DNA from: Rugamonas sp.
Lineage (GTDB): Bacteria; Pseudomonadota; Gammaproteobacteria; Burkholderiales; Burkholderiaceae_D
Length of the DNA: 64,000 bases
Assembly: GCF_025354735.1 (NCBI RefSeq)
Contig: NZ_JANXMI010000134.1
Span: forward strand, 62,001 to 126,000
Direction of reading: 5' to 3'
Shown: positions 33,413 to 63,037 of the stretch, in pieces
Layout of the letters: each line of letters opens with the position of its first letter
Position numbering within the stretch: position 1 is the stretch's first letter
Program-made: the position numbers and the translations under genes
Notes under the pieces: generated by a model
Seen by the model: only the letters and a program-made list of their open reading frames with translations
Told to the model about the DNA's origin: nothing
Databases searched by the model: none

Positions 33413-34720
33413 ATGATTACGGCGCCAACTGAACCTCCTCTCCAGCAAGTCGCATCGGACCTGTTCCGAGACTTCAAAGGGGATGAAGTCGGGGGAAGGC
33501 ATGCTATCCGTGGATTCAGCTTTTAGGTGTGGCATGCGGTACTGGAAGCGCTCCGTGCCCACCGGACCGGCGACGACTACGCAGTCGTACTTGAGTGGCA
33601 GCAGGACGTCGCCGTCCTGGACTCATCCGTAGCCCCGACCGGGGTTCGCTTCGTGCAGCTCAAGAAGCACGAGGTATCGACTCATTGGAAGCTCAATCAC
33701 CTCATTGCCTCCCCCAAGGGGAAGGACGATGATGCGCAAGCAGAGGCAGATGAACCCGATGACTCCGGAGCTAGCGGAGTCCCGACGGCGCCGCTCCCTG
33801 AGCCAGTCAAGAGCGGGAAAGGAGCGAAGGTGAAGGCAGCCAAAAAGCCGAAGCCGTCAATTCTGGCCAAGCTATACGCTCATCGGCGCCGATTTAAATC
33901 ATTAGGGAAATCTCGCCTGGAGTTCGCCTCCGACGCCCAGTTTGAAATGCCAGATGGGACTGGCGCCAGCCCGTTGCGCAGCAGTGTTGAGCTTTCTGCC
34001 GCCGATTCTGCCGTCCAACAGGCCATCGAAGCAAAGCTGAGAGAGCAGCTGGGCCTTGACCCGGCCGAAGCAGTGGACTTTTCGGACTTCGCTCTCGTGG
34101 TGAGCGACTGCCCGGTGAACGAACCACACAAGTACCTCGCCGGTGAACTCGCACAGATGCAGCTCGACTCTGAGCTTAATCTCAGCGGCAAGGCCACTAT
34201 TCTCGCGGTCCTCATCATCGCTTCTTACGTGTATCTCAGGGCCGGTAGTACTCGCTACGCCAAAAATTTCCCTGAGTTGTTAGGCCGCGCAGTCACGCGG
34301 AGCGACATCGACCTCTATCTGGCTGCTGCCGACGAAGAAACGGTCTCAGCACGGGACCTCGTGGAAGAGGTTATCCAAAGGCTGAACATCGAGGCGGCAC
34401 CATTCTCGCTGGTCAAAAATATGAAGAAGCACGTAGTACGTGCGTGTATGGAAATCACGAACCGTGCCGGCCCAGTGCCGGTCGTAACGGCGTACCTTAA
34501 AGCGCTATACGAATTGAATTCGGAGTACGACTCTCTACCGCGGGTTACCGATATCTTCTCCGCTTGGTTCGAGGACTTCCAGCAGTTGCAGTTAAGCGAA
34601 GCTCGCCCTTACAGCCGCGAGTACATTTACTGTCTAATGTCCATGATTACTCAAAATGCAAACCCCACAAAACAACTACCATCTGTTCCGGCTGGTCCGC
34701 AACCTGAGGACTCGGAATGA
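33413..34720 (+). pseudogene. DUF4297/Cap4-like nuclease-type effector, interrupted by an in-frame TAG at 33524-33526
   Basis: MITAPTEPPLQQVASDLFRDFKGDEVGGRHAIRGFSF[TAG]VWHAVLEALRAHRTGDDYAVVLEWQQDVAV; same frame on both sides of the stop. Confidence 0.65.
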
Positions 34721-45352: not shown

Positions 45353-46279
45353 TTACGGCAGTAAAACGAGTGGCAAATCTATATTCAATGGAAATCGGTG
45401 GTCCAGCCATAGGTAACCGAGGAATACCGCAACTCCGACGAGCCGATACGAGCCATCGCGGTCGTGCCCGAACCGCCGTCCAATCATCGTCAAGACACGC
45501 TCGAGCGAGCCTTTGGCATTGCTTTGCATGACTGCATGCGCAAATTCGTACGCAGCATCCATATGCGCGGCAATGTCGGTCCATAGGAACCATTGCTTGA
45601 GCAGCAGGTAGTTGTCAAACTCGCGGTCGGGGACGGTGAACTCGTCCATTACTTCATGAGTGCCCCCCCATGTCCAAATCCTCGAGACCTCGCGTCGATG
45701 CCGCCTAATCGTTTTAGGCGCCTCAATCTCTGCCCTTCGTTTTCCGGAAATTCCGTGGTAGTGGTAGTGCGGCAAACCTGGTATCCTAAGTGTCACCATG
45801 AAGTCGATTGTCATTACCTTATTTTTGGGGAACCTCTTGTCCGCTTCGTAGTAGCGCGCGTACTCCTCTTGGCTCCAAGAAGGGTACTGCGTCCTGAACT
45901 CGACTACAAACGGGCACATGTCTAAGTAGGCGTGTATCCGAGCCTCCAACATCGAATGGCAGGCGTTCATGCGGCCAGTTTTGATGCTGAACCAATTCCC
46001 AGAAATCCCCGTCCGCCCGTCTCGCGCCTTTTTCCAACAATCAAAATCGCGGCCCATCGCGACTCCTCTTGGGTCGGCAGCTGGCAATTGAATTGGCCAT
46101 TGCAGAATCGGCCGGCCCATGAGCTCACGCAGCCGCAGTCGCGGGTGCGCGTCGTCGTCCGTTGTCTGAGACAAAATGATGTCTCGGATTTTCGCTTGTG
46201 ACTGGTATGGGCTGGGTCTTTCCCTAATAAAAGGTAAGGAGGACCCGTCCGTTATGTAGAAGCATTTGCGCGAAGCCAT
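45353..46279 (-). CDS. tnsA: TnsA endonuclease
   Basis: SMLEARIHAYLDMCPFVVEFRTQYPSW...KVMTIDFMVTLRIP; adjacent to tnsB. Confidence 0.8.
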   Translation of the reverse strand: MASRKCFYITDGSSLPFIRERPSPYQSQAKIRDIILSQTTDDDAHPRLRLRELMGRPILQWPIQLPAADPRGVAMGRDFDCWKKARDGRTGISGNWFSIKTGRMNACHSMLEARIHAYLDMCPFVVEFRTQYPSWSQEEYARYYEADKRFPKNKVMTIDFMVTLRIPGLPHYHYHGISGKRRAEIEAPKTIRRHRREVSRIWTWGGTHEVMDEFTVPDREFDNYLLLKQWFLWTDIAAHMDAAYEFAHAVMQSNAKGSLERVLTMIGRRFGHDRDGSYRLVGVAVFLGYLWLDHRFPLNIDLPLVLLP

Positions 46280-47877
46280 TTTCGTATCCTTTCCTTAAAG
46301 CGTTTGTGTGATTGGTGTGAACGGGTATATGCGTCCAGGTCCCGATGAAAAGGTGCTTCTTCTGAGAGCAAGAACGCGTAGTCCAATAGAATTTCAGCCT
46401 CTCGGATTCTCCAAGACTCAATGGTCTCGACGCATAATTTCAACGCTTGCCTTGCTTCTGGGTATTGGTGCAGAGCGGCTTTACTTCTGCCTGCAAGTGG
46501 CCATCCTTGCATTAAACGCCGATGGGTGATTCTTGCTGGCAAGCGAGCGGCACGGAGGTGCGTACTACGTGCATGCACATGGTCAGCTATCGCCCCTCCG
46601 GTCCGGGAACGCTTCTTCTTATTTGCCTGGATTCGTTCCGAAGTGAACGGACGCCGCGGCAATGCAGCATCAAACCACTCCTTGTCAAATTCCCGCAAAA
46701 AATAATATAACTCCCGTTCGCCGGTCTCCCGTAAGTTCATGCGTTTAAGGTTGGGGAAACCGTCCTTCAAACCTAATAATCTCGCTCTGAAAATATCGCG
46801 GAGCTCCAAAACTTCCTGCTTATTTTTCGAGTGAAAATAGTGAAAACGATTTGGACGACCAGCCCGACTCTTTACTTTTAGGCCATTCTCAAAATAATGA
46901 GGGGTACTCGACTCGACATCAATCTCCTTGCTCGCTATCAATAATTCGTCTAGTCCATTGAATAGGGTAAGTATTAATATTATGTTATGGACCGGATTCC
47001 TAGACAGACGCTTTCCCTGAAGGCTAAAGTGAAATAACGAGCGAGTACTGGATACGAATTTATAGGAATTGATTACTTCGGCACCGATACGATGTACCAA
47101 AAGCGAACGGATTTTCGCTAGTCCGCCAGGTTTCCCGAAACCGAGCTGTTTCGCGCGTCGCGCAATAGCTGACAGAATGTTTTTGCTCCCGACCGCGGCT
47201 AACTCGCCATTTATTAATATTTTTCTAACTGTTTTTGAAATCGCAACCTCAACTTTACGGCCCTGTTCCGACCTCAAAACTCGCCTAGGAGTTAGTTCGG
47301 CCCCACATTCGCAAAGTGTCTTCGGTATCCACACAGCCAGCGATTGTCGAAAGCCGGTCACGCATTCACCGCAATAGTTGTATAAAGTTTCAAGATGGAC
47401 GGGACAAAGCGCAAGCCCGGGAGTGAAATGCGAGGTCCTCCAATACGGTAACCCCTTCTGTCTATCCTCGTCGATACACGCAAGACAAACCGGCAAAGAG
47501 CTCGATGGGCCGCAGGAATTAAAGCCGCAGATTGCGGCGATGCCCGGCGTTGGGCCGGCGAGATAGTGTGCACGTACTTGTGCGACCGAGTCATTCGCCA
47601 AAAAAGGGCGGATAAGCGGGAAAAGCGTATTGTTCTGCAGCAGAGATTCCGCTATGGGCATTGTTGCACCATAAGTTTTCGATAAACGTTCGAGTCCCGA
47701 CGGAAATAGCCATGCGAGCTTATGCGCCGGCTTGTTTAGAAGTCTCAGTGTCATTTCGACTCCCTGATGGGTGGCGAAGACTGAGATTCGGGAGACATAT
47801 CCGGTGACATTTTCGCCGACGTGTATTGCTGGTTTGAATAAAAAAAGTGCTGCGGACTCTGATGCTGCTGATGACAT
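46252..47877 (-). CDS. tniQ: TniQ/TnsD-family target selector (shorter paralogue)
   Basis: FLFKPAIHVGENVTGYVSRIS, CGPSSSLPVCLACIDEDRQKGLPYWRTSHFTPGLALCPVHLETLYNYCGEC zinc-finger pattern. Confidence 0.8.
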   Translation of the reverse strand: MSSAASESAALFLFKPAIHVGENVTGYVSRISVFATHQGVEMTLRLLNKPAHKLAWLFPSGLERLSKTYGATMPIAESLLQNNTLFPLIRPFLANDSVAQVRAHYLAGPTPGIAAICGFNSCGPSSSLPVCLACIDEDRQKGLPYWRTSHFTPGLALCPVHLETLYNYCGECVTGFRQSLAVWIPKTLCECGAELTPRRVLRSEQGRKVEVAISKTVRKILINGELAAVGSKNILSAIARRAKQLGFGKPGGLAKIRSLLVHRIGAEVINSYKFVSSTRSLFHFSLQGKRLSRNPVHNIILILTLFNGLDELLIASKEIDVESSTPHYFENGLKVKSRAGRPNRFHYFHSKNKQEVLELRDIFRARLLGLKDGFPNLKRMNLRETGERELYYFLREFDKEWFDAALPRRPFTSERIQANKKKRSRTGGAIADHVHARSTHLRAARLPARITHRRLMQGWPLAGRSKAALHQYPEARQALKLCVETIESWRIREAEILLDYAFLLSEEAPFHRDLDAYTRSHQSHKRFKERIRKWLRANAST

Positions 47878-49640
47878 TGTTGAATCTTATCGTTGACAAT
47901 ATTGATGACAGATTGGCTTCCGGCCAGCCGAACGATAGAACTCGTGCGCAGCCTGGCGCTCTTCGCCCAGCGCCATGGCTTCATCCCACTAGTGAAGGCC
48001 GGCCGAAGCGCCACCCAAAGGAGACGGCGCAGTACGAATGTTGGTTGAGTTTCGGGTACAAATCCCTCTGCGAGCTCACGGTCCATGGTCCGAAGGCGCG
48101 AGAGCGCGTATTCCGACAGTCCGGTTATGGCCTGGAGACGATAGGCGCTACGCCGCTCGGGAAGGAAGGTCGCAGTCTCGCATCCGTGCCAGCCTCTCCC
48201 GACCGCCTCCGCGGCCAGTTCCAGCAACGATTGCGGAAGTTGTACAAGGTCCTTTTTCGCGTGGACTCTCCTGCCCTGAGGAGTGTGAAGTACCAGCCAT
48301 TCGCGGTCGTGTCTGTAAAGGTAGGACCAGTCCGCCAGATGGCGGTGTCGCAACTCTGTCGCAGTGCAAAGCGGATGCTGCGCGAGGGCGCACTGCCACA
48401 CCTGACGTGCCGCAAGTAGCCGGGTCTTCGATTTTGTTTCCTGATTGGCCGCTTTACCACCAGGTGTGCTAGCCGTGACACGGTAGACCGTTGACAACGA
48501 AACACCGCACTTCGTCGCAATTTCGGCGGTCGATATACCCAGCAATACCTGCTCGGCAATCTCACGCCGTTTAGCCCCGAAAATCCGCTTGGGCCGGGTG
48601 CTGACCGGTATCCCATGTTCATGACAGAGGCATATCAGCGAATTCTTGGGAACACCCAAAAGGTACGAGGCCTGCGTGACCGACGGAGAGCATCGGAGCA
48701 CGCGCAATCGACTCTCTAAGCTTGGAACGGATTTGTGCCGTGAGGGATGCTGGACGTTGCGCCGAGAACGTTCGACAGGGCGCGCTCCGTCCGCCAGCCA
48801 TTTGAACAAGACGCACCAGACAGGGTGAATATTTCGGTCGGTTCGAAAGACCGAACGTAGGGCACTCTCGGCATATCGGGGCTCGGAGCAGAGCAAGCGT
48901 AGCCGCTCGTCACCGAATGCATCATTGAAGGTTTTGTGGAACGAATCAAGGAATGCGCTCACCGCGCATCGCCGACTCTCTGAAATCCACCCCCTCTCAG
49001 ATAGATGGTCAACCAATCTGGTGCGACGGTAGTTGGACGTAAGCCACGGAAATTCTATTGAATCGGCCATTCGGACAGCGAACTCTTTGGTAGCCTCATC
49101 AGACCCTTTTCCGCTCTTTCTGCACATCTGGTCATACCCGGTATTGCGCCGGTGAAGGGGCTCCAACACGGTGCCGTGCCAAGGGCAAACCGCTACAAAA
49201 GCTGCCGAGTGCTGCCTATAGGTAAAACTGAAGCCATATCGCGCTCGGTTTACCTCATCACAATCAGCGCAATGAAGAGATTCTTGTTCACCATGGCCAA
49301 AAAATAGTGGGAGGCGTGCCGGGCGCAGGGGGCCTCGTGAATCGCTCAGCAGCCTCGTCCGAAACTCATCCGTTCGACCTTGGACAACGCCACATGCAAA
49401 ATGATTGAAGAGAGTATGGTCTTCAAGCAGTTGTAATTCGTTGCCGTAAATACCAAATGCTTGACTAATTCTATGTATTGAGCACGGCAAAGCATCGAGC
49501 AGAGGACGTGACCGTTTGAGCAACTGAAGGCATTCGGCCCGCAACGTGCCACCGAAGTTACACACGGCGCTCCTCTCCAATAAGCTGTTTATCGTCTCGT
49601 CCTTGGGAAAGGCAGGCTTAATAATCAAGTGTTCAGTCAT
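47751..49640 (-). CDS. tnsD: TnsD-type target selector (longer TniQ-family protein)
   Basis: FPKDETINSLLERSAVCN; HCADCDEVNRARYGFSFTYRQHSAAFVAVCPWHGTVLEPL; multiple HTH-like segments. Confidence 0.8.
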   Translation of the reverse strand: MTEHLIIKPAFPKDETINSLLERSAVCNFGGTLRAECLQLLKRSRPLLDALPCSIHRISQAFGIYGNELQLLEDHTLFNHFACGVVQGRTDEFRTRLLSDSRGPLRPARLPLFFGHGEQESLHCADCDEVNRARYGFSFTYRQHSAAFVAVCPWHGTVLEPLHRRNTGYDQMCRKSGKGSDEATKEFAVRMADSIEFPWLTSNYRRTRLVDHLSERGWISESRRCAVSAFLDSFHKTFNDAFGDERLRLLCSEPRYAESALRSVFRTDRNIHPVWCVLFKWLADGARPVERSRRNVQHPSRHKSVPSLESRLRVLRCSPSVTQASYLLGVPKNSLICLCHEHGIPVSTRPKRIFGAKRREIAEQVLLGISTAEIATKCGVSLSTVYRVTASTPGGKAANQETKSKTRLLAARQVWQCALAQHPLCTATELRHRHLADWSYLYRHDREWLVLHTPQGRRVHAKKDLVQLPQSLLELAAEAVGRGWHGCETATFLPERRSAYRLQAITGLSEYALSRLRTMDRELAEGFVPETQPTFVLRRLLWVALRPAFTSGMKPWRWAKSARLRTSSIVRLAGSQSVINIVNDKIQQCHQQHQSPQHFFYSNQQYTSAKMSPDMSPESQSSPPIRESK

Positions 49641-51034
49641 GGCCGTTTTTGTTTGACTGGGGAATCGGCGCGCGCTCTGGGCTTCGTTTCCAACAATTCG
49701 CGAGAGGTCCCGGAGAACGCGGCAAACGGAAGGTAATCGGCGTGGTACAAATCCGCCGGAGTTGGGTTTGGCATCGGCTCAGACTTCTTCTGGTTCTGAA
49801 TCCTCTTCAGCAACATTAAGGGCTCGTCGAACATCCGAAGCCAGAGGCCAAGCAAATATGCGACCTCAGATGCAGGTGCATTAGCGAAGAAACGTGGTTC
49901 ATAGACAGCGTGATGGAGTATCGCGTCGAACCCCTGCGCAAACACTCTCATGTTGCCCAAAGATGCTCCCCACATCATTGTTGGGAGGTACTCAGGCATA
50001 TGAATGTCAGCGGCATGAAAGCCGAGCCCCCAAAACCACGTACACATAGCGTCCCAATTGGCACCTGGGGGCTCCAAGTCCCAATACTCTTGACCTAACG
50101 AGCCAAAGTTTGCATGTTTGCTTCCACCTCGAGCGATGAGTTGCAACGCAGGATAGGTGCAACAGACAATCGTTGGGATGCCAGTTCTCGCTTTAAACGT
50201 GGCGATAAAATCGAGGATTTCTTTCGGGTCCCCATACAGTGATTGCTTGCACATACCGTCGACTGCGAGCAGTCCCAAGTTCAAAAAAACGCAAGTGGCA
50301 ATCGCAGCGCTCGGTCCGAATGGGCCAAGTAAATTTGCAAAGGCATTTTCACTTGTTTGCGAACAACCCAATTCTCCGATAAGTGCGTTTCGCAGGTTAG
50401 CAAGAAGCCCAAATAGCGTGCCGCAATCCGGCCAACGGAGTATCAGCATCGGTACAAAAATAAACTCAGCAGGAGCGTCTCCAATGCCTATAATTTTTGT
50501 GTGACGCTCGCCCACAAGTGCTCGCAGACGTTGCAGAAATACTGTTTTTCCGGAACCAGACGGGCCCGCCAACAAAAAGCCGGCGCCGGTCAAGCTCTCT
50601 AAAAATTCTGGCATCGGCTTAATTTTTCCGCCACGCATTACATCGGCTTGGTCGTAATAAAAGCGCAAATAGCGTGGGTCTTGAGGATTGCGCAATTCCA
50701 GTGAAACATGCATTTGCATAACGACACGCTGCGCAAATCGAGCAGCGTCAATCGTTGGGCGATAGGCCCGTGGCAGAGACGCCAGTGCTAGAAGCTTCTG
50801 TTCCATCGACAGACCATCGTTGTTGTCGACCCTCGGCACACCCCGATGGTGCAGGAGTTTTTTTACCTTCAATTCCGGTAGCTGAGATTGAAGCAACCTC
50901 AACAGCGGGTTTTCAATCGCGCCTGTTAAAACCGGTGGAAATCGCTCGATGCAGCCAGCGTTAGCGGACTGTGCAGCGATATCGGCGCTAATGGCCCGGG
51001 TTTTATCAACTGGGTCAAATTCGACATTGTTCAT
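49637..51034 (-). CDS. tnsC: TnsC AAA+ ATPase
   Basis: Walker A GPSGSGKT; position in tns operon; overlaps tnsD by 4 nt. Confidence 0.8.
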   Translation of the reverse strand: MNNVEFDPVDKTRAISADIAAQSANAGCIERFPPVLTGAIENPLLRLLQSQLPELKVKKLLHHRGVPRVDNNDGLSMEQKLLALASLPRAYRPTIDAARFAQRVVMQMHVSLELRNPQDPRYLRFYYDQADVMRGGKIKPMPEFLESLTGAGFLLAGPSGSGKTVFLQRLRALVGERHTKIIGIGDAPAEFIFVPMLILRWPDCGTLFGLLANLRNALIGELGCSQTSENAFANLLGPFGPSAAIATCVFLNLGLLAVDGMCKQSLYGDPKEILDFIATFKARTGIPTIVCCTYPALQLIARGGSKHANFGSLGQEYWDLEPPGANWDAMCTWFWGLGFHAADIHMPEYLPTMMWGASLGNMRVFAQGFDAILHHAVYEPRFFANAPASEVAYLLGLWLRMFDEPLMLLKRIQNQKKSEPMPNPTPADLYHADYLPFAAFSGTSRELLETKPRARADSPVKQKRP

Positions 51035-52322: not shown

Positions 52323-54152
52323 CTACTCGACCGTGACCGATTTCGCCAGATTGCGCGGCTTGTCCACATCGGTGCCGCGTGCCAGCGCCGAGTGGTAGGC
52401 CAGCAATTGCAGCGACACCACGTGCAAGATCGGCGACAGCAGGCCGTAGTGTTCCGGCAGCCGGATCACGTGCACGCCTTCGCCCGAGGTGATGCGCGAA
52501 TCGACGTCGGCGAACACGTATAGCTGGCCGCCGCGCGCGCGCACTTCCTGCATATTCGATTTCAACTTTTCGATCAGCGCGTCGTTGGGCGCGATGGTGA
52601 CGACCGGCATTTCCTCGGTGACCAGCGCCAGCGGACCGTGCTTGAGCTCGCCCGCCGGATAGGCTTCGGCGTGGATGTAGGAAATCTCCTTGAGCTTCAG
52701 CGCGCCTTCCAGCGCGATCGGGTAGTGCATGCCACGGCCGAGGAAGAGGGCGTTTTCCTTGCGCGCGAAATCGTCGGCCCAGGCCATGATTTGCGGCTCC
52801 AGCGCCAGCACCGCGGAGATGGCGACCGGCAAGTGGCGCATCGCCTTGAGCTGGGCCGCTTCTTCCTCGTCGCTGAGGCGGCCGTTGATTTGCGCCAGCG
52901 TCAAGGTCAGCAGGAACAGCGCGGCCAGCTGCGTGGTGAAGGCCTTGGTCGAGGCGACGCCGACTTCGACGCCGGCGCGCGTGATGTAGGCCAGCTTGCA
53001 TTCGCGCACCATGGCGCTGGTGGCGACGTTGCAAATGGTCAGCGTGTGTTCCATGCCGAGGCCGCGCGCGTGCTTGAGCGCGGCCAGCGTGTCGGCCGTT
53101 TCGCCGCTTTGCGTTATGGTCACGACCAGCGTGTTCGGGTGCGGCACGCTGTCGCGGTAGCGGTATTCGCTGGCGATCTCGACGTTGACGGCGATTTTGG
53201 CCACCGATTCGATCCAGTATTTGGCCGTCAGGCCGGCGTAGTAGCTGGTGCCGCAGGCCAGGATCAGCACACGGTCGATCTGCTTGAAGACGGCGTAGGC
53301 GCCGTCGCCGAACAGCTCGGGCATGATGCCGGTGACGCCTTCGAGCGTGTCGCCGATGACGCGCGGTTGTTCGAAGATTTCCTTTTGCATGTAGTGGCGA
53401 TACGGGCCCAGCTCGGCGGCGCCGGTGTGGGCGTGCACGGTTTTGACTTCGCGCTGCGCGGCTTTGCCGTGGACGTCGACGATCCAGGTGCGGCCCAGTT
53501 GCAGGTCGACCACGTCGCCTTCTTCCAGGTAAATGATCTGGTCGGTGGTCCCGGCCAGGGCCATGGCGTCGGAGGCGACGAAATTCTCGCCCTGGCCGAT
53601 GCCGACGATGAGCGGCGAGCCCTGGCGCGCGGCGACGACGCGGTGCGGTTCTTCCCGGCAAAACACGGCGATGGCGTAAGCGCCCTGCAGGCGCTTGACG
53701 GCCTGCTGGACGGTCTCGAACAGGTCGCCGTTGTACATGTGGTCGACCAGGTGGGCGATCACTTCGGTGTCGGTCTGGCTCTGGAACACATAGCCGAGGG
53801 CGCTCAGTTCGGCGCGCAGGTCGTCGTGGTTTTCGATGATGCCGTTGTGGACCAGGGCGATGCGGGCCAGGTCGGCGCTGGGCGAAAAGTGCGGGTGGGC
53901 ATTGTGCGACAGCGGCGCGCCGTGCGTGGCCCAGCGCGTGTGGGCGATGCCGGTGAATCCTTGCATGCCGGCCTCGTCGATCTGCTGCTCCAGGTCGGCC
54001 ACGCGCGAGGTGCTGCGCGAGCGCCGCAATTGTCCATCGACGTGCAGCGCCACGCCGCACGAGTCATAGCCGCGATATTCCAGCCGTTTCAGGCCTTCCA
54101 GCAGGATGGGGGTGATATTGCGTTGCGCTACCGCGCCGACGATGCCGCACAT
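52323..54152 (-). CDS. glmS: Glutamine-fructose-6-phosphate aminotransferase GlmS
   Basis: [15 protein letters not shown] domains; C-terminus NLAKSVTVE. Confidence 0.98.
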
Positions 54153-54321
54153 AAAGGCCTCTTGGATGAGTTAAGTGATGAACGATTAAGCAGTTCAGGC
54201 ATCGTAGTGCAGAGGTGATGAAATAAGCTGTCTTATTGAGCCTATTTTTGAAATTAAATTTCACCTCATCGTAGACATGAAATATTATTTCATTTATTCA
54301 TATTTTATTTCCTATTTCATC

Positions 54322-54795
54322 ATGACCGATACCGCGATAGCCTTGGACGACATCGATCGTCGCATCCTGAACGCCCTGCAAATTGACGCGTCACAAACCA
54401 ATAGTGAGCTGGCGCAAGCGGTGCACGTGTCGGCGCCGACTTGTTTGCGGCGGGTCAAACATTTGACGGCGGCGGGCGTCATCACGCGCCAGGTGGCGAT
54501 TGTGGCGCCTGAGAAAGTCGGCGCGCGGCTGACGGCCATCGTCGAGATCACGCTCGACGTGCAGGCGGCCGAGCGCATGGATGAGTTCGAGCAATACATA
54601 GGCGCCGACGATGCCGTGTTGCAGTGTTATCGCGTGTCGCCGGGGCCGGATTTCGTGCTGATTATCCAGGTGGCCGATATGCCGGCTTATCATGCGCTGG
54701 CCCATCGTTTATTCGCCGCGCAGACCAATGTGCGCAATGTGAAGACGTATTTTTCCACGTTCCGCAGCAAATTCGAGACCAAAATCGCGCTGTGA
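54322..54795 (+). CDS. Lrp/AsnC-family regulator
   Basis: LDDIDRRILNALQIDASQTNSELAQAVHVSAPTCLRRVKHL; start trimmed to MTDTAIALD. Confidence 0.9.
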   Translation: MTDTAIALDDIDRRILNALQIDASQTNSELAQAVHVSAPTCLRRVKHLTAAGVITRQVAIVAPEKVGARLTAIVEITLDVQAAERMDEFEQYIGADDAVLQCYRVSPGPDFVLIIQVADMPAYHALAHRLFAAQTNVRNVKTYFSTFRSKFETKIAL

Positions 54796-54822
54796 CGACT
54801 TATCCCATCGTTGTTCAGCCGC

Positions 54823-55248
54823 TTATGCACAGCGTTATGCACAAGTGGTGCGTCGGTGGCATGAGGGCGCGCAAGTTGTCCCGCGATACCCACCGGTTTT
54901 CCCAGCGCTTTCAGCCCACTTAATCACAGAGTTATCCACACAAATAAGTTATCCATGCTTATCCTGGCTATTTTCCACAGGCTTATGCACACGATATGCA
55001 AGATATCGTGCCCATGAGCCCGCTAGCCCGCCGACGCTCAATTTCCAGCTCTGAAATCTATCCCGTCGCGACTTATCCCGCACTTTTCCAGCGCTTATAC
55101 CGCTGTTTCCCCTGGCTTCCCAGCCTACTTTTCCACAACATTATCCACAGTACGAATCGCCGGATTTTGCGGCGGGAAAAGTTGTCGTAAAAAAAGCCGG
55201 GAAAGTTATCCCGGCTTGCGCACAGACTTCTCAACAGCGTTATCCACA
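54823..55248 (+). promoter_or_regulatory. DnaA-box cluster: six perfect TTATNCACA sites, all on + strand
   Basis: ttatgcaca at 54823, 54835, 54983; ttatccaca at 54932, 55141, 55240; near matches ttttccaca at 54971 and 55129. Confidence 0.7.
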
Positions 55249-55262
55249 AGGGATGGCCACGC

Positions 55263-56627
55263 CTACTGTTTGATTTTGACCGGGCGGGTCCAGCCGTCCA
55301 CCGTCACCTGGCGCGCGCGCGACAGCGTCAGCTTGCCGGCCGGCGCATCTTTCGACAGCGTGGTGCCGGCGCCGATGGTGGCGCCGCGGCCCACGGTCAC
55401 CGGCGCGATCAGCTGGGTGTCGCTGCCGATGAAGGCCTCGTCCTCGATCACGGTGCGCGATTTGTTGACGCCGTCGTAATTGCAGGTGATGGTGCCGGCG
55501 CCGATGTTGACGCGCGAGCCGATGGTGGCGTCGCCGATGTAGCTCAGGTGGTTGGCCTTGCTGTGGGCGGCGATCTGGCTGTTCTTGACTTCGACGAAGT
55601 TGCCGACGTGGACGTCCTCGGCCAGCTCGGTGCCCGGCCGCAGCCGCGCATACGGTCCGATGACCGAGGCCGCGCCGACGACGGCCTGTTCGATGTGGCA
55701 GAAGGGCTTGATGACGGCCCCGGCCGCGATGCGCGCGTTGACGATCACGCTGTGCGCGCCGATGCTGACGCCGTCCGCCAGCTCGACCTTGCCTTCAAAC
55801 ACGCAGCCGACGTCGATGCTGACGTCGCGTCCGCAAACGAGTTCGCCGCGCACGTCGATGCGGGCTGGATCGGCCAGCGTGACGCCGCGTTCCAGCAGCG
55901 CCAGCGCGATATTGCCTTGATGGATGCGCTCGAGCTGGGCCAGCTGCACCTTGCTGTTGACGCCGGCCACTTCCCACTGCGCGTCCGGCTGGGCCGAGAC
56001 GACGCGCACGCCGTCGCCGACGGCTTTGGCGACGATATCGGTCAGGTAATACTCGCCCTGGGCATTGTTGTTCGACAAACTCGCCAGCCAGCGCTTCAAC
56101 TGCGCGGTGGGTGCGACCATGATGCCGCTATTGATTTCCTGAATCGCCCGTTGCGCCTCGCTGCCATCTTTTTCTTCGACGATCGCAACGATTTCGCCGT
56201 TTTCACGGATGATGCGGCCCAGGCCGAAGGGATCGTCCTGCACCACGGTCAGAATGCCGAGCTGATCGTCGCCGGCCGCGTCGACCAGGCGACGCAGTGT
56301 CGCGGCCGTCGTCAGCGGCACGTCGCCGTACAGTATCAAGGTCGGCACGTTGTCGTCGAGTTCCGGCAAAGCCTGCATGACGGCGTGGCCGGTGCCCAGC
56401 TGCGGTTCCTGCAGCGCGGTGGCGACCACTTCGCCCCGTTTGGCGAGCAGATCCAACACGGCTGCGCCGCCATGACCGTAAATCACGCATAATCGCCCCG
56501 GAGACAGGCTGCGCGCGGTATCGATAACATGCGACAGCAGCGGCTTGCCAGCCAATGGATGCAACACTTTCGGCAGCGCGGACTGCATGCGCTTGCCCAT
56601 GCCAGCGGCGAGGATGACTACATTCAT
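55263..56627 (-). CDS. glmU: Bifunctional UDP-GlcNAc pyrophosphorylase/GlcN-1-P acetyltransferase GlmU
   Basis: [31 protein letters not shown]; hexapeptide-repeat C-terminus. Confidence 0.97.
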
Positions 56628-61426: not shown

Positions 61427-63037
61427 TTACGCCCCGCTGGAGCGGTAGCCGATGCGGAAACCGCCCCAGTGCCGGCCGTCGACATAAATCGGCGCCGACA
61501 GATCGTGCATGACCTCGCCCGTATCGCGCTTATAGGTCTGCAACAGGAAGGCTTTCGTATTCGAGCCGCAACGCTTGCCGGTGCGGTCGCTGAAGATGCG
61601 CTTGGTGCGATTGTTGACGATGTCGACGGCATAATCGCCCGTCAGCGGCTGGGTAAACTTCTTGTTATGCGTGGGGAAATAACCATTGTTATCCACAGCG
61701 CCGGCATAAGCGAGCTGCGGCATACGCAGCAATAAACTCTCTTGCACATCGGGCAGCACGCGGTCGGTGAAGGCGTCGAAGGCCGTCGTATGCTTGGGCG
61801 GATCGGTGTTCGGGATCGCCGTGTAGCGGCGCTCGAACAGCGCCTCGCGGGAAATCTTGCCGGAAGCCACGGCGGCGGCGAAGATCCGGCCCACTTCCCG
61901 GGCGGCGTCCTGGGCCGCGATGCGGATCGCGTCGTGGGCGGTCTCGATGTTGGCGTCGCCGAGCGCGCCGGCGATCATTTCGGCCCGTTCCGCCAGCGCC
62001 ATCGCCGAGCCGGCCGCGCGCGGCAATTCGGCCCCGGTCGACATCAGGCTGTCGCGGATCTGTTCGATGGCGGCGGCGATGCGCTGCGTCGTCGCGACCT
62101 GCTCGCGCGAGGCCCGCGCGATCTGGGCGATTTCATTTTCGGACACGCCGGACGAGCGCTCGATATTGCCCAGCAGCCCGTGCACGGACGCCACATTGCC
62201 GGCCGCCGCGCTGACGCCGCTGGCCAGCGAGGCCATGCCGGCCGAGGCTTTTTCCGCTTCCTCGTTGATGATGCGCACCATCTGGCTGATTTCATCGGCC
62301 GCCTCGCGGGTGCGGAAGGCCAGCTGGCGCACTTCGCCGGCGACCACGGCGAAGCCGCGCCCATGTTCGCCGGCCCGCGCCGCCTCGATGGCGGCGTTCA
62401 ACGCCAGCAAATTGGTGCGCGCCGAGATTTCCGCGATGGCGACGGTAAAGCCATGGATGCGGCGCGATTTTTCTTGCAGGCTGACCATCACCGACGCCGC
62501 CGACTGTGCCGCGCTGCGCACGGCGTTAATGCGCTGCAAGCCTTCGTCGGCCTGCTCGCGCCCGCTCACGGTTTCGCTGCGCACCTGGGCCGCGACCTGG
62601 GCCGCCCTTTCGGCGTTGGCCGCGATGCGCTCGGTGGTGCTGGCGTTGGTGTCGGAGCTGGCGACGATGTCGCTGGCGGTCTGGACATCCTGTTCGATTT
62701 TCTTTTTGACGGAGTCGACAAAATAAGAGGTTTCGGCCGCGCCTATCATGATGGCGTCGATTTCCTCGCCGACCGTGTGGGCGAAATCGCGCACGCCGCC
62801 GTCTTCCCGGCCGCCCGGCCCCGCCAGGCCCAGCTGCGATATCAGCTGTGATACCAGCGCCGCCGCCAGCGCCGCGGCCGTCGCGGTCAGCCACACGCTG
62901 GCGCCAGCCTGCTGCGTCAGCCATGCCGCGCCGACGCCGACCACTGTCGCGCCCGCGATCGAGGCGATGCGCGTGGTCCGCCCCAGCGAACCGACAGGCG
63001 TGGCGCGGCGCGCCGTCCTCTGCTGCAATTGTGTCAT
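61427..63037 (-). CDS. Methyl-accepting chemotaxis protein
   Basis: Signalling core [41 protein letters not shown]. Confidence 0.93.

Follow-up and report, generated by a model that had tools for sequence, protein, structure and literature searches.

Head-to-tail double DnaA boxes between an Lrp/AsnC-family gene and glmU form a conserved array near the predicted replication origin of Rugamonas and its relatives

The window, a 64,000-nucleotide stretch of a Rugamonas sp. contig, contains a 467-bp gap bounded by the stop codons of two convergent genes. According to ORF and domain calls, the left neighbour encodes an Lrp/AsnC-family regulator (54322..54795, + strand) and the right neighbour is glmU (55263..56627, − strand). 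A probable glmU terminator was read from the sequence and an alignment at 55189..55217: on the − strand, the hairpin AAGCCGGGA..TCCCGGCTT, which is kept in relatives, leads into a T run. On the other side of the Lrp gene, the divergent glmS/lrp gap (54216..54320) is AT-rich by base composition, with a GC content of ~0.26 over the 110 bp preceding the gene. The sequence-only reading had mentioned this AT-rich stretch in connection with the DnaA boxes described below. The stretch is real, but its link to the boxes did not hold up, as the glmS/lrp gap of relatives that have no boxes is equally AT-rich (GC 0.15–0.39). We therefore assigned the tract to the glmS/lrp divergent promoter region and did not count it as an unwinding element.

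The left part of the window (1–52300) has a lower GC content, 0.50–0.57 vs 0.60–0.63, and probably represents a Tn7-like island in the attTn7 site beside glmS. Two TniQ/TnsD-like genes (46252–49640) and an ATPase-like gene (49637–51034) lie just beyond the glmS stop codon (3′ end at 52323). The cargo includes RND efflux, multicopper oxidase, metal P-type ATPase and cation efflux genes, as well as a Cap4-nuclease-domain gene (33527–34720) and a Fic-domain gene.

Scanning the window for TTATNCACA identified six perfect matches in the Lrp-glmU gap, at 54823, 54835, 54932, 54983, 55141 and 55240, all on the + strand. The sole perfect match outside this cluster is at 61689. In 5000 dinucleotide-preserving shuffles of the gap, the mean number of perfect + sites was 0.018 and the maximum was 2. 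Allowing up to one mismatch, the gap contained nine sites on the + strand and none on the − strand; allowing up to two, the numbers were 12 and one, respectively. These data confirm the earlier description of six perfect same-strand sites with near matches, placed between the Lrp gene and glmU and far above chance. The cluster is nevertheless more ordered than that description held, a strict 12-bp pairing of the boxes having been missed.

More specifically, nearly all of the strong boxes have a same-strand partner exactly 12 bp away, leaving 3 bp between the two, and thus form head-to-tail double boxes. The start positions of the resulting 12-bp ladder are 54811/54823/54835, 54920/54932, 54971/54983, 55129/55141 and 55216/55228/55240. 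According to box scans, the array (54811..55248, + strand) comprises six double boxes, each a 9-mer, a 3-bp gap and a second 9-mer, and every double box of the window is inside the gap. No double box was found in 340 kb of far-arm sequence of one relative. The array is divided into five modules, all on the + strand. Module 1 (54811..54843) has a weak box, TTGTTCAGC, at 54811, followed in 12-bp steps by TTATGCACA at 54823 and 54835. Modules 2 to 4 are TTAATCACA-gag-TTATCCACA (54920..54940), TTTTCCACA-ggc-TTATGCACA (54971..54991) and TTTTCCACA-aca-TTATCCACA (55129..55149), respectively. Module 5 (55216..55248) consists of TTGCGCACA, TTCTCAACA and TTATCCACA at 12-bp steps. Across 38 related genomes with the array, a 12-bp partner, defined as at least 6 of 8 bases matching at 12 bp on the same strand, was present for 158 of the 159 perfect boxes. 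Alternative spacings of 9–20 bp yielded partners for only 0 to 9 of them, while the 24-bp spacing, the next step of the ladder, was enriched too.

In E. coli, ChIP-seq located DnaA in vivo mostly at double boxes with a 2–3 bp gap, and the insertion of 1 extra bp between the boxes largely abolished binding (PMC11317965). At the sequence level, 158 of the 159 perfect boxes in the 38 genomes have this arrangement. Module 2 is nearly identical to the double box of E. coli datA, TTGTAAACA-gag-TTATCCACA (PMC11317965), having the same gap and the same strong box. By analogy with these E. coli ChIP data, the double boxes of the array are expected to bind DnaA in Rugamonas.

To judge from an alignment of relatives, the array is under selection, since box bases are kept far better than spacers: the mean major-base frequency was 0.95 in the boxes, 0.92 in their partners and 0.72 in the spacers. 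The array is present in relatives from Rugamonas, Janthinobacterium, Duganella and Pseudoduganella, and is absent at the locus in several Massilia. In two relatives, G028 and G020, most of the perfect boxes are gone and the same-strand double-box ladder is kept. G008 carries an insertion of just under 3 kb that divides the array; both halves are retained. The array is the sole cluster of at least three same-strand double boxes across 400–540 kb in G028 and G031; G020 has one further such cluster, at the mtnN module described below, and the two in G008 are the array's own halves. Close relatives differ in how many perfect boxes their genomes carry, from 20 to 73 (G028, G020 and G032 vs G008, G031 and G023), and the array is weaker in the box-poor genomes.

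DnaA regulates genes in E. coli (PMC11317965), and the array might accordingly serve in DnaA-dependent control, or in a transcription block, of glmU, glmS or the Lrp gene. We consider this very improbable. Control of a promoter by the array is unlikely because the gap sits between convergent genes and contains just their 3′ ends. Moreover, the array survives in G008, where the insertion parts it from one of its neighbours.

The source genome is in 334 contigs, and closed relatives of the same genus stood in for it in mapping the origin. In all seven of these, the Lrp-glmU locus is about 310–425 kb from dnaA. Each of the seven has one dif site. The antipode of this site is about 4–50 kb from Lrp-glmU; its distance to hemE-priA exceeds 120 kb, and that to dnaA exceeds 260 kb. 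Six have two or three exact parS sites, all 26–31 kb beyond the Lrp gene; no exact parS site was found in G021. Plain GC skew from 20-kb samples was too noisy to place the origin. We relied on fourfold-site skew, calculated per gene and compared between oppositely directed genes, which corrects for gene direction; the gene set consisted of open reading frames that passed a filter on codon-position G+C. According to this corrected skew, which resolves tens of kb, the best change-points in G031, G028, G020 and G008 were 368, 366, 244 and 358 kb from dnaA, respectively, with Lrp-glmU at 411, 358, 354 and 392 kb. The positions of dnaA and of hemE-priA each fell below the best change-point by 4.9 to 36 log units in the four genomes. 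Together, the dif antipode and the direction-corrected skew place the origin near the Lrp-glmU locus and far from dnaA. The sequence-only reading had looked to skew and to the position of dnaA to judge the cluster, and the array proved not to be distant from the skew minimum: in the closed relatives, the change-point and dif antipode are within about 4–110 kb of it, a resolution too coarse to separate the array from the mtnN module 13–17 kb away.

This second locus, on contig C132 of the source genome, contains three tandem DnaA-trio modules (L007, 3640–4105 and 6850–6905) by an mtnN-like nucleosidase gene (Pfam PNP_UDP_1); two of the modules lie immediately upstream of this gene. After the three copies of TTATCCACAG come a spacer, then CTA/TTA trios and an AT-rich tract, a layout that matches the basal unwinding system (BUS) described in PMC8287927. 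The motif TTATCCACAG-N11-TTTACTAY occurs at the mtnN place in all eight genomes of the genus that were searched. With up to one mismatch, it occurs in 111 of 295 genomes of the family, representing 12 of 44 genera, although a few of these matches, which lack the GTTTACTA portion, seem fortuitous. Of 30 loci fetched from other genera, 26 have an mtnN homologue adjoining the motif. The module is 13–17 kb from Lrp-glmU in the seven closed relatives, and the modules are about 350–420 kb from dnaA there. In the source genome, contig C298 ends 9.7 kb past the array and C132 starts within putA; synteny with G031 puts a minimum of 13.4 kb between the array and the first module. Among the source-genome loci scanned, mtnN was the only one with trios: no DnaA-trio run was found in the array, at hemE-priA, at xseA-exbB or at the dnaA locus. 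In four closed relatives, the DNA within 50 kb of the mtnN module is enriched in perfect boxes. Based on the motif, the skew and the symmetry of the chromosome, oriC is predicted to be at mtnN.

Three other loci were considered as oriC and rejected. The dnaA locus of the source genome has one perfect box upstream and no trios, and the skew in the four genomes was against it. In this group, oriC should not be presumed to be at dnaA. The AT-rich hemE-priA gap (L005, contig C189, 5947–6694) contains five perfect boxes, the first two 177 bp apart, in an arrangement that recurs in 30 of 30 genomes. Raw octamer and hexamer strand-bias minima were nearer to hemE-priA, but were discounted because raw measures are confounded by gene direction; once direction was corrected for, the fourfold-site skew rejected this locus, which is also devoid of trios. 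Finally, the other large double-box cluster of the source genome occupies the xseA-exbB gap (L006, contig C250, 6529–7742), where repeat modules of ~150–200 bp each have a TTATCCACA-type box and then a TGTGCAGAA motif, and where seven double boxes occur in total. As this gap is between divergent genes and has no trios, a regulatory site or an additional DnaA-binding array is the likelier interpretation.

The array could itself be oriC, or one half of a split origin in which filaments begun at the array help opening at an unwinding half located at mtnN. We regard this as unlikely, and its narrower form, in which the array is the separate, distant half whose DnaA filaments help to open the mtnN trio modules, as somewhat more so. 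The dif antipode, about 4–50 kb from the array in the seven closed relatives, is consistent with such a role, as is the skew: the log-likelihood deficit summed over the four genomes, which share ancestry so that their likelihoods are not independent, was 12.9 for the array vs 25.6 for the mtnN module. Skew alone thus slightly favours the array, although the change-points miss both loci, by up to about 110–125 kb in G020. Bipartite origins are also known elsewhere, for example in H. pylori. By contrast, no DnaA-trio run occurs in the window and no unwinding element was found beside the boxes, the AT-rich tract lying beyond the Lrp gene. In addition, 13 kb would be far for a single initiation complex. 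While the trio module occurs in 12/44 genera of the family, the array is not kept at the same place in all relatives, as would be expected of oriC, several Massilia being without it. Given the conserved unwinding module at mtnN and these Massilia, the array itself is disfavoured as oriC and is probably not its core. A split origin would mean that the group has a two-piece origin, both pieces being far from dnaA.

We also weighed whether the array is a functionless remnant of a former origin. It is near the skew change-point, and an AsnC-family gene, glmU and glmS are also near oriC in E. coli, which we counted towards this reading. Nevertheless, conservation of the box bases well above the spacers makes a remnant very unlikely, and the occurrence of the trio module across several genera suggests that the origin has long been at mtnN.

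Computation showed directly the boxes and their register, how well these are conserved, that the flanking genes converge and that the locus lies close to the predicted oriC. These features are best explained, in our judgement, if the Lrp-glmU gap carries, rather than the core of oriC, an origin-proximal array of DnaA-binding sites through which DnaA is titrated or inactivated, a reading we consider probable. The role in titration or inactivation is suggested by analogy with known systems. On the double boxes, DnaA would assemble cooperatively into head-to-tail dimers or short filaments. At ~13–17 kb from oriC, the array would be duplicated within seconds after initiation; being copied so early, it would be well placed to take DnaA from the pool or to inactivate it. 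The doubled array could soak up free DnaA or, as datA does, promote ATP hydrolysis in the DnaA oligomer, and the resulting decrease in active DnaA would hinder re-initiation.

Because the boxes share one direction, the array would suit head-to-tail ATP-DnaA oligomers, as at datA and not as at DARS. A DARS-like site that reloads DnaA with ATP would also be a DnaA-box cluster outside the core origin. However, the DARS core is three boxes with a head-to-head pair (PMC5742627), and the array has no such pair, the − strand being devoid of boxes with zero or one mismatch, rendering this possibility extremely unlikely. Thus, of the identities proposed by the sequence-only reading, namely part of oriC or a locus resembling datA or DARS, the datA-like one is better supported, by same-direction double boxes, convergent genes and a distance of 13–17 kb from the predicted oriC; neither DARS nor oriC itself is favoured.

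In the literature searched, we found no description of this array or of oriC in the Rugamonas-Duganella-Janthinobacterium group. The locus offers an evolutionarily replicated example of a predicted DnaA-binding array next to a predicted oriC. Its strict double-box register in many species, together with natural variants that are intact, weakened, insertion-split or absent, would allow a test of whether titration by origin-proximal arrays times replication, a question opened only recently, in E. coli (PMC12371093).

Like E. coli datA, the array is a non-coding, intergenic cluster of same-direction boxes, downstream of genes and on the origin side of the chromosome. It differs in having more boxes and a stricter 12-bp ladder, and in being ~13–17 kb from the predicted oriC, whereas datA is several hundred kb from oriC in E. 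coli. The essential boxes of datA likewise all point one way, but datA requires an IHF site between its boxes (PMC5742627). No convincing IHF site was found in the gap, where the sole match to WATCAANNNNTTR with up to one mismatch overlaps a DnaA box, although a consensus scan may miss weak sites. For this reason, the array should not be filed as datA. An oriC with a BUS shares with the array consensus boxes and tandem pairs spaced by 3 bp; by contrast, the array has neither trios nor an adjacent AT-rich tract, and mtnN, where the BUS lies, is on a different contig. In Bacillus subtilis and Streptomyces coelicolor, DnaA-box clusters repress untimely initiation and are described as datA analogues, as cited in PMC5742627. 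These clusters, from other phyla and likened here by description, are also chromosomal boxes outside the unwinding site. Lastly, DnaA boxes in E. coli are concentrated near oriC, where they are expected to titrate DnaA, and are reported to prefer the lagging strand (PMC12371093), a preference not seen genome-wide here. The E. coli enrichment is a broad density of single boxes and the array is one compact cluster; each is near an oriC, a predicted one in the case of the array.
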